Notes under the pieces: model-generated
Database searches by the model: none
Told to the model about the DNA's origin: nothing
The model's input: only the letters and a program-made list of their open reading frames with translations
Source of the DNA: Flavobacterium aquatile LMG 4008 = ATCC 11947
GTDB lineage: Bacteria; Bacteroidota; Bacteroidia; Flavobacteriales; Flavobacteriaceae
Assembly: GCF_000757385.1 (NCBI RefSeq)
Contig: NZ_JRHH01000003.1
Span: 186,001-250,000, forward strand
Reading direction: 5' to 3'
DNA: 64,000 nt
Shown here: piece by piece, positions 7,556 through 64,000 of the stretch
Position numbering within the stretch: position 1 is the stretch's first letter
Layout of the letters: each line of letters starts with the position of its first letter
Translations under genes and position numbers: made by a program

Positions 7556-7597
7556 TTACTTAATTCGTTCTTTGTTGTTGTTTTTAATTGGTCTCAT
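7556..7597 (-). other. Possible short leader ORF of 13 codons
   Basis: ATG at 7595-7597 gives MRPIKNNNKERIK and a stop. It lies between the regulator gene and the membrane operon. Its start, ATGAGACCAAT followed by AAC/AAA-rich sequence, resembles the second half of the purK leader. Translation is unproven. Confidence 0.3.
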
Positions 7598-7639
7598 TGA
7601 ATAGTTTTTTATAATATTATTTTTAAGATGTTTAAAAAA

Positions 7640-10900: not shown

Positions 10901-10977
10901 TTGAATTTTGAATTATAAATTTTAAATTATTTTGATTTCATTCAAAATTTAAAATTCATAATAATTTCTAACTAATT
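10901..10977. repeat. AT-rich heptamer-register spacer between purK and purE
   Basis: Reads as consecutive 7-nt units (TTGAATT, TTGAATT, ATAAATT, TTAAATT and so on). It also contains an imperfect AT-rich inverted repeat. The register is suggestive but the sequence is low complexity. Confidence 0.4.
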
Positions 10978-12119
10978 ACTCTAATACTATTCTTAACTTC
11001 CTCTGCAACCTTTCTCGCTTCATCCATATTCTCATTTACAATCGTAACATGCCCCATTTTTCGGAAAGGTCGCGTTTCTCTTTTGCCGTAAATGTGTGGC
11101 GTTACTCCATCAATTGCCATTATTTTTTCGATGTTTTCGTAAATTACCTGTCCCGAAAAGCCTTCTTCACCTACCAAATTTACCATAATTCCGGCAACTT
11201 TACTGTCGCAATTTCCTAACGGAAGATTTAAAATGGCGCGTAAATGATTTTCAAATTGTGATGTATAACTTGCTTCAATGGTGTGATGTCCAGAATTGTG
11301 TGGTCTTGGAGCAACTTCGTTTACCAATATTTCATCGGTAACTGTTTGAAACATTTCTACGGCCAATAAGCCAACGTGATTGAATTTTTCAGAAACTTTT
11401 AAAGCAACTTCCTGTGCTTTTTGTGCAACTTTATTATCAATTCTTGCTGGACAAATTACATATTCTACCTGATTAGCTTCGGGATGAAATTCCATTTCTA
11501 CCACAGGATAGGTTTTTATTTCGCCAGAAACATTTCTAACAACAATTACTGCCAATTCATTTTTAAACGGAATAATTTCTTCAGCAATGCATTCAACATC
11601 AGGAAGATTTTCGATGTCTGTTGCTGAACGAACGATTTTTACACCGTTTCCATCATATCCGAATTCGGTACACTTCCATACGAATGGTAGCGGAAGTTTG
11701 GTTTCTATAAACTCGATAAGTAATTCTTTTTTACTGGCAAATTTTTTAAAATTCGCAGTTGGAATTCCATTTGCTTCGTAAAATTCTTTCTGAATTCCTT
11801 TATTCTGAATTAATTTCAACGTTTTTGGTGATGGAAAAACTTTTACGCCTTCATTTTCTAATTTTTCAAGTGCATCAAGATTTACCAATTCGATTTCGAA
11901 AGTCAAAACATCCACTTGTTTTCCAAAGTTGTAAACGGTTTCAAAATCCATTAAACTTCCTTGGAAAAATTTATTGCAGGCAATTTTGCATGGTGCTTCA
12001 TCACTCGGGTCAAGAACGTAAGTTTGAATATCGAATTTTCTAGTTTCGGAAAGTAGCATTTTGCCTAATTGTCCGCCGCCGAGAATTCCTAATTTAAAAT
12101 TGGAAGAAAAATAATTCAT
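10968..12119 (-). CDS. purK: N5-carboxyaminoimidazole ribonucleotide synthase
   Basis: 383 aa from the ATG at 12117-12119 (MNYFSSNFKLGILGGGQLGKM), which matches the usual PurK start. It is an ATP-grasp enzyme that carboxylates AIR with bicarbonate and ATP. GILGGGQLG opens the Rossmann-like domain; EEIIPFKNELAVIVVRN and NEVAPRPHNSGHHTIEA are the ATP-grasp core and AIR site. An in-frame upstream ATG at 12173 would add an 18-residue extension; I treat that segment as a leader ORF because a near-identical leader precedes carA. It forms an operon with purE. Confidence 0.95.
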   Translation of the reverse strand: MNYFSSNFKLGILGGGQLGKMLLSETRKFDIQTYVLDPSDEAPCKIACNKFFQGSLMDFETVYNFGKQVDVLTFEIELVNLDALEKLENEGVKVFPSPKTLKLIQNKGIQKEFYEANGIPTANFKKFASKKELLIEFIETKLPLPFVWKCTEFGYDGNGVKIVRSATDIENLPDVECIAEEIIPFKNELAVIVVRNVSGEIKTYPVVEMEFHPEANQVEYVICPARIDNKVAQKAQEVALKVSEKFNHVGLLAVEMFQTVTDEILVNEVAPRPHNSGHHTIEASYTSQFENHLRAILNLPLGNCDSKVAGIMVNLVGEEGFSGQVIYENIEKIMAIDGVTPHIYGKRETRPFRKMGHVTIVNENMDEARKVAEEVKNSIRVIS

Positions 12120-12173
12120 TTCGTCGTAGTTATTTTTGTTATTGGTCTCATGCAGTCGCTTCGCTCGTGTCAT
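12120..12173 (-). promoter_or_regulatory. Leader ORF of purK, shared in sequence with the carA leader
   Basis: The minus strand encodes MTRAKRLHETNNKNNYDE, in frame with purK. The carA leader at 63165 encodes MTRAERLRLTIKNK. Both start regions resemble each other (AACTACAACACAATG here), and the main purK start has a similar context (AACTACGACGAAATG). It may be a regulatory peptide or an alternative N-terminus. Confidence 0.5.
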
Positions 12174-15399: not shown

Positions 15400-15498
15400 G
15401 AGCGAATGGCTCGGGCATTTTAGCAAACCATATTCCTGCTTTTCGTTACAATCTTTTTTTTACAAAAAAGATTTTCTCTTCAATCAGGGCTAGATAGC
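15399..15498 (+). repeat. GGAGCGAA...ATCAGGGCTA structured repeat, copy A
   Basis: Conserved 5' part GGAGCGAATGGCTCGGGC, where GAGC pairs with GCTC, then CCTGC and the 3' part ATCAGGGCTAGATAG, where CCTG can pair with CAGG. The inner variable hairpin here is AATCTTTTTT/AAAAAAGATT. It begins on the last base of the preceding stop codon. Confidence 0.8.
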
Positions 15499-41704: not shown

Positions 41705-41788
41705 GGAGCGAATGGTTCGGTCTTTTTTTGCAATCCGTTTTCCTGCTTTCCGTTCTACTTCGTGCCACTGCAATCAGGGCTAAATAGT
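41705..41788 (+). repeat. Structured repeat, copy D
   Basis: GGAGCGAATGGTTCGG to ATCAGGGCTAAATAG. GAGC pairs with GTTC. It lies between rarA and the rhomboid gene; the inner part has a weaker hairpin than other copies. Confidence 0.75.
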
Positions 41789-42687: not shown

Positions 42688-42802
42688 GCTAACTAGCCCT
42701 GATTGTAGAGAAAATAAAAAACCTTTCTGGGTTTCAGAAAGGTTTTTTATTGCAGCGAAAAGCAGGAACATGGATTACAAGAATGCACAAGCCATTCGCT
42801 CC
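42688..42802 (-). repeat. Structured repeat, copy E, carrying a terminator hairpin
   Basis: Inverted relative to the other copies. The conserved ends read GGAGCGAATGGCTTG and ATCAGGGCTAGTTAG on the minus strand. The inner hairpin is the 14-bp stem AAAAAACCTTTCTG / CAGAAAGGTTTTTT. Confidence 0.8.
42716..42748. terminator. Bidirectional terminator inside repeat copy E
   Basis: 14-bp perfect stem with a 5-nt loop and A/T tails. It stands between the convergent rhomboid and rlmB genes and can end both transcripts. Confidence 0.8.
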
Positions 42803-60583: not shown

Positions 60584-60701
60584 TTTACTGTTTTTTCAGT
60601 AAATAATACAACTATAATTAAGTATAACAAGAGAAAGAACAAAGATTATCGAAGGATTTATTGACCTGAATTCATAATCTCTATCTCAAAACAATTTTAA
60701 A
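60584..60701 (+). promoter_or_regulatory. rpsD leader with two weak hairpins
   Basis: TTTACTG/CAGTAAA (60584-60603) and AGATTAT/ATAATCT (60643-60680). The gap is long for this operon and precedes S4, which controls the alpha operon in other bacteria. A regulatory role is inference. Confidence 0.35.
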
Positions 60702-62940: not shown

Positions 62941-63049
62941 GGAGCGAATGGCTCGGGCTTTATCAGTAATCCATGTTCCTGCTTTCCGCAGTATCTTTAT
63001 TATTTTAAAGAAAAATAATAAAGGATACTTGCTCCAATCAGGGCTAAAG
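62941..63049 (+). repeat. Structured repeat, copy G
   Basis: GGAGCGAATGGCTCGGGC to ATCAGGGCTAAAG. The inner hairpin is the longest in the window, AGTATC TTTATTATTTT / AAAATAATAAA GGATACT. It lies between the superoperon terminator and the carA promoter. Confidence 0.8.
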
Positions 63050-63099: not shown

Positions 63100-63130
63100 T
63101 TGCAAGATTTGAGTTAATAAAATAACTTTG
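63100..63130 (+). promoter_or_regulatory. carA promoter
   Basis: TTG (63100-63102), 20 bp, TAACTTTG (63123-63130). The leader ORF starts 35 bp and carA 89 bp downstream of the -7 element. Confidence 0.7.
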
Positions 63131-63164
63131 CAAAACACAATACAACACTACTAAACTACAAATA

Positions 63165-63209
63165 ATGACTCGAGCAGAGCGACTGCGTTTGACCATTAAA
63201 AACAAATAA
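63165..63209 (+). promoter_or_regulatory. Leader ORF of carA
   Basis: Encodes MTRAERLRLTIKNK and a stop, 9 bp before the carA ATG. It is closely similar at DNA level to the purK leader (ATGAC-CGAGC--AGCGACTGC----GACCA-TAA). Both the leader start and the carA start have the context AACTACAA. It is a candidate regulatory peptide or RNA target. Confidence 0.55.
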
Positions 63210-63218
63210 CTACAACAA

Positions 63219-64000
63219 ATGAAGTACACGACAAGACCACAAGCCATACTTTTACTTGCAGACGGAACCATATTCTACGGCAAATCAATCGGAATCTCAG
63301 GAACAACTTTTGGTGAAGTATGCTTTAATACCGGAATGACAGGTTACCAAGAAATTTTCACCGATCCATCGTATTTCGGACAAATAATGGTAGCCACAAA
63401 TCCGCACATAGGAAATTACGGCGTAAATGAAAACGAAGTAGAATCAGAAAAAATAATGATTTCTGGATTAGTTTGTAAAAATTTCAGCTTCAACCACTCA
63501 CGTCCAGATTCAGAAAGTAACTTATACGATTATTTCGAAAAACAAAATCTAGTGTGCATCTCAGATGTAGATACAAGAGCGTTAGTTGGATACATAAGAG
63601 ACAACGGAGCACAAAATGCCGTAATCTCAACAGACGGAACTTCAATCGAAGAACTAAAAAAACAACTAGAAAATGTTCCAAATATGGTTGGTTTAGAACT
63701 AGCTTCTAAAGTTTCAACCAAAGAACCCTATTTCTTCGGAAACGAAAATGCAACTTTCAAAATCTCAGCTTTAGATCTTGGTATCAAAAGAAACATCCTA
63801 AGAAATCTAGCAAAAAGAGATTGCTACATAAAAGTTTTTCCATACAATACTTCTTTCGAAGAGTTAAAGTCTTTCAATCCAGACGGATATTTTCTGTCAA
63901 ATGGTCCTGGTGATCCTGAGCCTTTAGAAGGTGTTATAAATGTTGCTAAACAAATTATCAATACCGACAAACCAGTTTTCGGAATTTGTCTTGGTCACCA
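63219..64000 (+). CDS. carA: Carbamoyl-phosphate synthase small subunit, 3' end beyond window
   Basis: 260 codons are visible from the ATG at 63219 (MKYTTRPQAILLLADGTIFYG). The N-terminal domain includes GEVCFNTGMTGYQEIFTDPSY. The glutaminase domain begins SALDLGIKRNILRNL, then FLSNGPGDPEP, and the sequence stops at FGICLGH, which contains the catalytic Cys. CarA supplies ammonia for carbamoyl phosphate, used for arginine and pyrimidines. It has its own promoter and a leader ORF. Confidence 0.97.
   Translation, partial: MKYTTRPQAILLLADGTIFYGKSIGISGTTFGEVCFNTGMTGYQEIFTDPSYFGQIMVATNPHIGNYGVNENEVESEKIMISGLVCKNFSFNHSRPDSESNLYDYFEKQNLVCISDVDTRALVGYIRDNGAQNAVISTDGTSIEELKKQLENVPNMVGLELASKVSTKEPYFFGNENATFKISALDLGIKRNILRNLAKRDCYIKVFPYNTSFEELKSFNPDGYFLSNGPGDPEPLEGVINVAKQIINTDKPVFGICLGH

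Follow-up and report, generated by a model that had tools for sequence, protein, structure and literature searches.

We interpret the leaders of carA and purK in the window (the whole 64,000-nucleotide stretch of DNA analysed here) as two copies of a start-codon cassette that is dispersed and probably mobile and carries an anti-start able to mask one or the other of two start codons; we give this interpretation a probability of roughly 0.55. Members of this family would be non-coding and short, at about 50-95 bp, and would be dispersed over the start codons of genes in sense orientation. Each copy would start with an ATG at the place of the native ATG, behind the gene's own 5'UTR. A variable stem-loop would follow, then the anti-start, in most cases CATNNN, then ACCNTTAAAAAACAATA, a stretch rich in A, and finally the working start codon, with the three bases before the latter expected to complement NNN.

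Two copies at carA and purK

The original prediction of a shared device at the start of carA and purK was right (Table 1). A promoter element followed by a small ORF stands before carA (TAACTTTG and the 14-codon ORF MTRAERLRLTIKNK), and TATCTTTG and ATGACACGAGCGAAGCGACTGCATGAGACC are likewise present before purK, the latter beginning at 12173 on the minus strand. The separate small purK ORF predicted at 12120-12173, on the other hand, is not there: the copy has no in-frame stop, and the frame of the upstream ATG runs on into purK as a 401-aa ORF (10968..12173), in which PurK homology sets in at residue 26 (NF004679) or 28 (TIGR01161). Start contexts described as near copies are partly ordinary A/C-rich 5'UTR, as an element-free purK (L235) has the same AACTACAACAACACA before its ATG. 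Promoter elements similar to TAACTTTG and TATCTTTG precede leaderless purK and carA genes too.

Both copies match R1, a covariance model of the element's second half, and both are rows of its alignment (carA copy, L002, 63186-63221, 40.6 bits; purK copy, L166, 12152-12117, 35.2 bits). The carA anti-start contains CGT, giving a G-U wobble with AUG, while in the purK partner, CGA-A-ATG, one extra base (A) offsets the pairing, which is imperfect in the window.

The core CGAGCNNAGCGACTGC occurs exactly only at the carA and purK sites in the 3.49-Mb genome, with four more places at one or two mismatches. Within the window alone it is indecisive, with two matches at up to three mismatches and two or more in 21 of 100 shuffles. 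Across genomes, the predicted likeness of the carA and purK DNA proved genuine, as the core exceeds chance: allowing one mismatch, the pattern GRCNCGAGCNNAGCGACTGCAT was found 58 times, in 42 of the 398 same-genus genomes scanned (Flavobacterium, judged by copies common to named records), and the reversed pattern gave none.

Table 1. Positions of the two start-codon elements, their parts and a weaker third copy in the window
Feature	Position	Strand	Basis or remark
TAACTTTG promoter element, 5' of carA	63123..63130	+	sequence
carA copy of start-codon element, upstream ATG to carA ATG	63165..63221	+	sequence
Leader ORF MTRAERLRLTIKNK, 14 codons, ending 9 nt 5' of carA	63165..63209	+	peptide unconserved across family
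First stem-loop region, ATG ... GAGCAGAGCGACTG ... CGT	63165..63188	+	analogy with other copies
carA anti-start CGTTTG, complement of CAAATG 63216-63221 with one G-U	63186..63191	+	sequence, R1
CAA + carA ATG, pairing partner of anti-start	63216..63221	+	sequence, R1
carA, ATG at 63219, cut by window end	63219..64000	+	homology; 372 aa in L002
TATCTTTG promoter element, 5' of purK	12203-12196	-	sequence
purK copy of element, upstream ATG 12173 to purK ATG 12119	12117..12173	-	sequence, R1
purK anti-start CATGAG	12147..12152	-	sequence, R1
purK, 383 aa from ATG 12119	10968..12119	-	NF004679, TIGR01161, both above cut-off
Weaker third copy of second half, AATGAG...CGAATT, intergenic, away from gene starts	7562..7598	-	R1, 28.5 bits

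Distribution in the genus and phylum

The element is dispersed. A scan of named genomes with GACNCGAGCNNAGCGACTGCAT, in which the two bases before GAC were left free, returned 47 copies on 41 contigs, mostly labelled Flavobacterium or Flavobacteriaceae with a few Chitinophagaceae or Puia, and a similar pattern matched 5 of 395 genomes sampled across the phylum. The second half, CATNNNACNNTTAAAAAACAATA, was found 17 times as an exact match in 199 genomes (control, 0): 15 matches precede an ORF of at least 80 aa, one (L388) precedes a 25-codon frame and one (L392) lies away from a start. One of the 17 is in this genome, 5' of a Xaa-Pro-aminopeptidase-like gene. With R1, 45 of 61 genus genomes match at E ≤ 0.05, with a maximum of 22 matches in one genome and seven in this one; among the six of these seven that were listed, five lie at gene starts and that at 7562-7598 elsewhere. 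At a threshold of 0.001, R1 matched 24 of 296 genomes of the phylum sample, belonging to 11 genera, and two other genera of the family held 23 and 16 copies. Counts from different searches are not independent, because the G-handle and named genome_contigs records partly overlap.

The largest subfamily has the form ATGAAATGAGCAT..(stem-loop)..ATGCGAATTACATATGACCGATAAAAAACAATAAATATCAACATATG. At least 14 of the 50 carA upstreams examined (out of 57) follow the same leader plan with another stem-loop, some of them degenerate, for example ATGAAGCTTTTTAAGTTTCAT and then ACACAATTAAAAAAACAATACAAATTAAAGA + ATG. Tandem copies of two to four units were seen at L037/L082, L074, L057, L146, L153 and L287, the array of L146 combining two types of stem-loop. 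The second half has 18 matches in G341, which is related at class level; several of them have equal scores, and the two examined (L482, L496) lie away from long genes and beside masked bases. The 18 matches may represent another arrangement and are not countable as start-codon copies, because L482 and L496 are both away from long genes.

Position at start codons and carrier genes

Copies stand at start codons and duplicate them. All 47 copies from the GACNCGAGCNNAGCGACTGCAT scan, whose first two bases were free, start with ATG, and 38 of them have the start of an ORF of at least 60 aa 49-58 nt downstream; the others comprise five with a tandem copy, two at a contig end and two with neither. 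Similarly, 65 of 70 R1 matches in the genus open an ORF of at least 60 aa whose frame is closed 1-39 codons upstream, or 59 of 64 once six rows of the model's own alignment are set aside, against a background at the same loci of 377 out of 5693 ATGs (6.6%) passing this gene-start criterion. These 70 loci remain from 72 after removal of two in L447 that repeat L406, and were drawn as 30 plus 40 mostly next best by score, some copies already in the set being skipped. In the phylum sample, 24 of 27 R1 matches lie at an ORF of more than 60 aa, the exceptions being L485 and, with masked flanks, the two in G341. Information content in the flank preceding the upstream ATG does not exceed 0.8 bits in 34 long-subfamily copies and 1.1 bits in 28 A-type copies, compared with 1.7-1.9 bits for the ATG itself, at which the pattern used to gather the long subfamily begins.

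There is no pathway theme among the carrier genes. Those above curated cut-offs are purK, carA, pyrH, lpxB, cinA, leuS, queA and a cob(I)yrinic acid adenosyltransferase gene; genes for an AsnC/Lrp-like regulator, a fumarylacetoacetate-hydrolase-like protein and a Xaa-Pro-aminopeptidase-like protein fall below the cut-offs; an ABC transporter, lpdA, an RND pump, a histidine kinase, lipB and kdpC were named by eye only. A carrier family whose proteins start with MKDLFG had no NCBIfam match at 1e-20.

The anti-start covaries with the start region of the gene

Across the family, it is the complementarity to the start region of the gene that is conserved. The anti-start, usually CATNNN, lies about 27-38 nt 5' of the gene; its NNN is the complement of the base triplet that immediately precedes the start codon. 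It was located in 90 of 97 members as CAT, CAC or CGT 27-38 nt before the start, so that its presence, unlike the flank pairing, is partly given by construction; the members without it are one A-type copy and six carA 'B' hairpin leaders. NNN and its partner take ten Watson-Crick forms (TTG/CAA, ATG/CAT, CTG/CAG, GCT/AGC, GGC/GCC, GTC/GAC, TAC/GTA, TCG/CGA, AAC/GTT and TTT/AAA), and three others (GAG/CGA, GAA/TGA and CGA/GAG) pair only if adjacent G.A and A.G are allowed. When 79 of the 80 A and C members were collapsed, 49 distinct combinations remained, spread over 27 gene groups; of these combinations, 23 paired at all three positions, compared with a mean of 7.4 and a maximum of 15 in 5000 shuffles.

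Similar results were obtained with alignment A1, which consists of 45 of the 90 members, hand-picked as one or a few per gene with mispaired members kept. Here 83.6% of cells are paired (73.9% when shuffled) and 26 are doubly changed (9.6 when shuffled). The A1 pairing score is 0.228 against 0.088 for shuffles (0/500) and at most 0.138 for slid controls, with the caveat that, at the inner two NNN positions, 21 and 20 of the 45 rows have non-standard pairs, many being G.A. In the largest subfamily (34 rows), the outer helix is 98% paired and varies little, and the inner helix is 71.5% paired. The A2 score leans towards pairing because pairing is built into the A2 model.

NNN covaries with the flank of the gene start, both among A-type copies (19 of 55 pair at all three positions, 9.1 when shuffled) and in the long subfamily (28 of 33), and in neither case was the value reached in 3000 shuffles. 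With the flank of the upstream ATG, on the other hand, there is no clear covariation in A-type copies (9 of 55, 5.4 when shuffled; 164 of 3000 shuffles as high) or in the long subfamily (6 of 33, 3.2 when shuffled; 17 of 3000 as high). The covariation thus picks out the gene's start as the putative constrained pairing partner. In addition, GTG starts are paired with CAC in leaders L045 and L145 and in R1 matches L461 and L463, of which the latter opens a 23-codon frame only; as a counterexample, CAC stands with an ATG start in three degenerate carA leaders. Orthologues of pyrH differ by compensating pairs (TTG/CAA and TAC/GTA).

Predicted folding and a possible role in initiation

Whether treated as RNA or as DNA, five window pieces of 30-34 nt do not fold better than their shuffles (z -1.12 to +0.77), nor do the two longer window leaders (z -0.96 and +0.64) or the first stem-loop region of the carA copy. 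L086 (z -1.97) and L423 (z -2.87) do fold, in both cases with the anti-start on the upstream ATG; when L423 is given its real flank, its minimum-energy fold leaves the ATG of the gene open. The mean predicted occupancy of the anti-start is 0.41 for the upstream ATG and 0.37 for the gene start in 35 long copies, and 0.26 and 0.17, respectively, in 64 A-type copies. These predictions suggest that the two starts would compete.

Within the mRNA, two partners would be available to the anti-start, the upstream AUG and the start region of the gene. Since pairing with one would exclude pairing with the other, the cassette may decide which start codon is open, so that translation would be affected and initiation at the gene tuned rather than destroyed. 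Bacteroidota do without Shine-Dalgarno sites. The A-rich stretch would be a low-structure sequence of the kind that favours initiation, as outlined for F. johnsoniae (PMC6847099). The pairing of a start codon in a 5' hairpin, as in the proposed masking, is familiar from RNA thermometers and riboswitches; these are specific to their regulator and are not scattered in near-identical form across unrelated genes.

Empty sites, gain and loss

Sites without the element are common. Upstream regions of purK were examined in 95 cases (108 genomes had a purK match), and 11 carry the element, six from a set of 90 and five further known carriers. In many of the element-free ones, the promoter element and an A/C-rich stretch are followed directly by the purK ATG. 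The empty purK site L235 has TTTATCTTTGCGCAAACAACTACAACAACACA before its ATG, and the window matches 31 of these 32 bases before the element and then the purK ATG follow. At carA, the empty L319 and the filled L320 have AAATTTGCAAAATATCTAATTACAA in common before the start codon or the element, respectively.

A tree of 57 purK rows, in which carriers (33) are over-represented, requires at least 11 changes, or three on well-supported branches alone, as compared with 18.7 when shuffled. The purK element is therefore clustered on the tree but has been repeatedly gained or lost. Moreover, one genome has near-identical elements 5' of two unrelated genes (L471/L493). The copies would appear to move as units.

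A general target duplication of 16-18 bp, suggested by AACTACAAC flanking the element at purK and carA, was considered and rejected, L078 being a case that shows one. In 30 rows outside purK and carA, the duplication beyond the start codon amounts to 5.1 of 14 matches, against 4.8 when shuffled (17% as high), if the L074 tandem and L078 are left out, and to 5.66 against 4.87 (0.7% as high) if they are included. No terminal inverted repeats were found, both ends being ATG on the same strand, and no transposase was found with the element. A search of plasmids and phages with one long copy, and of viral_contigs with two exact patterns, gave no match.

Comparison with known repeats and alternative explanations

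No Rfam 15 family reaches its gathering score over the window leaders or in 25 loci, apart from Flavo-1 elsewhere; the best sub-threshold match over the carA leader is STnc480 (22.6 of 72 bits). No description of the element was recognised in a search of open-access articles. It is apparently an undescribed repeat, short and dispersed, whose site and structure are both unusual.

In IS200/IS605 elements, the ends are recognised by pairing with an internal guide. This offers the main rival explanation, by analogy: the anti-start might be the DNA-level guide of a non-autonomous single-strand element, with ATG as the cut or target at both ends, the pairing serving movement of the DNA and masking in the mRNA being a by-product. 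We regard it as a serious contender, albeit an unlikely one. As in IS200/IS605 (guide details from general knowledge), an internal sequence is complementary to the end or target, CATNNN covarying with N'N'N'ATG at the right end, and there is generally no duplication beyond the ATG. The ATG at each end with CAT between and the tandem arrays of 54-56-nt units also fit, and target recognition by reprogrammable base pairing is outlined for IS608 (PMC5934647). However, a guide to ATG alone leaves the preference for start codons over other ATGs unexplained, and the flank of the left ATG does not clearly covary with the guide beyond CAT/ATG. In addition, unlike IS200/IS605, the element has no transposase alongside and is restricted to start codons, and a survey of 15 genomes (one of which, G687, has no element match) located Y1-type transposase genes at 13 places in 11 of them, with no second-half motif at up to two mismatches in the flanks examined.

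The same genes bear on a comparison with REP/TnpA-REP (RAYT) systems, including the Bacteroidetes subclass 2.6, which as outlined in PMC6006769 are likewise short, non-coding, palindromic and dispersed; Y1-type genes are present in several element-bearing genomes. Unlike these repeats, the element stands at start codons in sense orientation with a covarying anti-start, and the four Y1 flanks examined carry other palindromes. A RAYT/REP origin was rejected: GAGCGCAGCGACTGG near the Y1 gene of L299 belongs to a different palindrome, CGCGAATCCTTTCGCG, that flanks this gene. MITEs and Rickettsia palindromic elements, the latter entering coding genes in frame according to the parts of PMC10969869 drawn on here, are also short, non-autonomous dispersed repeats compatible with gene expression. 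They differ from the element, which ends in ATG on the same strand at both sides, has neither terminal inverted repeats nor a general duplication past the start codon, and does not lie inside ORFs. TAACTGA repeats of Beggiatoaceae, some Bacteroidetes and Cyanobacteria are similarly dispersed near start codons of unrelated genes, and a translational role has been suggested for them; unlike the element, they are heptamer direct repeats, and the abstract describes no duplicated start codon or anti-start (PMC4679880).

An improbable alternative is a host cis-regulatory RNA, i.e. a regulon with a trans-acting protein or sRNA that spread to new genes by rare recombination and is not selfish. The purK leader is indeed far more conserved than its flanking 5'UTR (about 0.2 for the whole leader and 0.6 for the 5'UTR, at a 4-fold divergence of 0.56-0.65 and in a set enriched for carriers; the 0.09 of the 24-nt core is biased by the search), and orthologues such as pyrH differ by compensating pairs. 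Even at purK, however, such an RNA would be patchy (11/95), with at least three changes on the tree and 11 in the most parsimonious case; its target genes would lack a theme, and it would occur as near-identical copies within one genome (L471/L493).

The leader peptide originally predicted for carA and purK, which would respond to nucleotide or arginine status through attenuation or coupling, is very improbable: purK, pyrH and carA are all carriers and a mere 9 nt separate the carA leader ORF from carA, but the reading fails because the element precedes genes without a common theme (no shared pathway in 27 N-terminal groups of the A and C set), few purK genes carry it and the peptide is unconserved. 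The refuting test originally proposed for the leader peptide thus went against it. Leader ORFs in 47 A-type copies range from 4 to 31 codons or are open beyond 32; codon 5 is variable and is a stop (including TAG) in several copies; in the commonest subfamily the ORF is just Met-Lys-stop (36 of 70 copies), and the purK leader in this genome has no stop. Internal stops and the MK-stop subfamily rule out a conserved leader peptide, and a functional peptide from the upstream ORF is unlikely. Some form of translational coupling may nevertheless operate.

Returning to the start-codon cassette, we also put forward, tentatively and with less confidence than the cassette itself, that the start codon is the integration site of a new class of parasite or control cassette, which would bring a duplicated start, its own initiation region and an anti-start contested by the old and new starts, such that initiation could shift from the former to the latter and essential genes survive. 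The choice of start codons as sites could be made either on RNA or on transcribed DNA. If the cassette interpretation is true, a repeat would have rewritten the start codon and 5' end of as many as about twenty genes, essential ones included, in a single genome of some flavobacteria, and some annotated starts may be wrong, e.g. the 18-residue PurK extension here. The copies would provide a natural test of start-codon choice in Bacteroidota and raise the question of which process recognises a start codon as an insertion site.

Other repeats and leaders

A 25-nt module near ACACGAGCGNAGCGACTGCCGAAGG lies inside Flavo-1-like and other intergenic repeats (L126, L129, L131, L133, L138-L142, L164 and L165); it has its core in common with the carA/purK leader and is not positioned at a start codon. 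A different insertion in the purK 5'UTR, with variants, is present in L167, L170, L174, L220 and L231 and consists of a small hairpin (e.g. AGGCAATATGCC) and a GAACAGACAAAGTAAA-like stretch. Public MAG contigs L057, L058, L060, L068 and L074 are labelled Rhizobium, Bifidobacterium breve, Klebsiella pneumoniae or Sphingobacterium; their leaders and genes look flavobacterial, and the labels may be wrong. The window contains an S4-Flavobacteria ribosomal protein leader (RF03141) above its gathering score at 60644-60679 (+) and four matches to Flavo-1 (RF01705), at 15428-15495 (-), 41735-41785 (-), 42691-42773 (+) and 62971-63049 (-), the last lying just upstream of the carA promoter.
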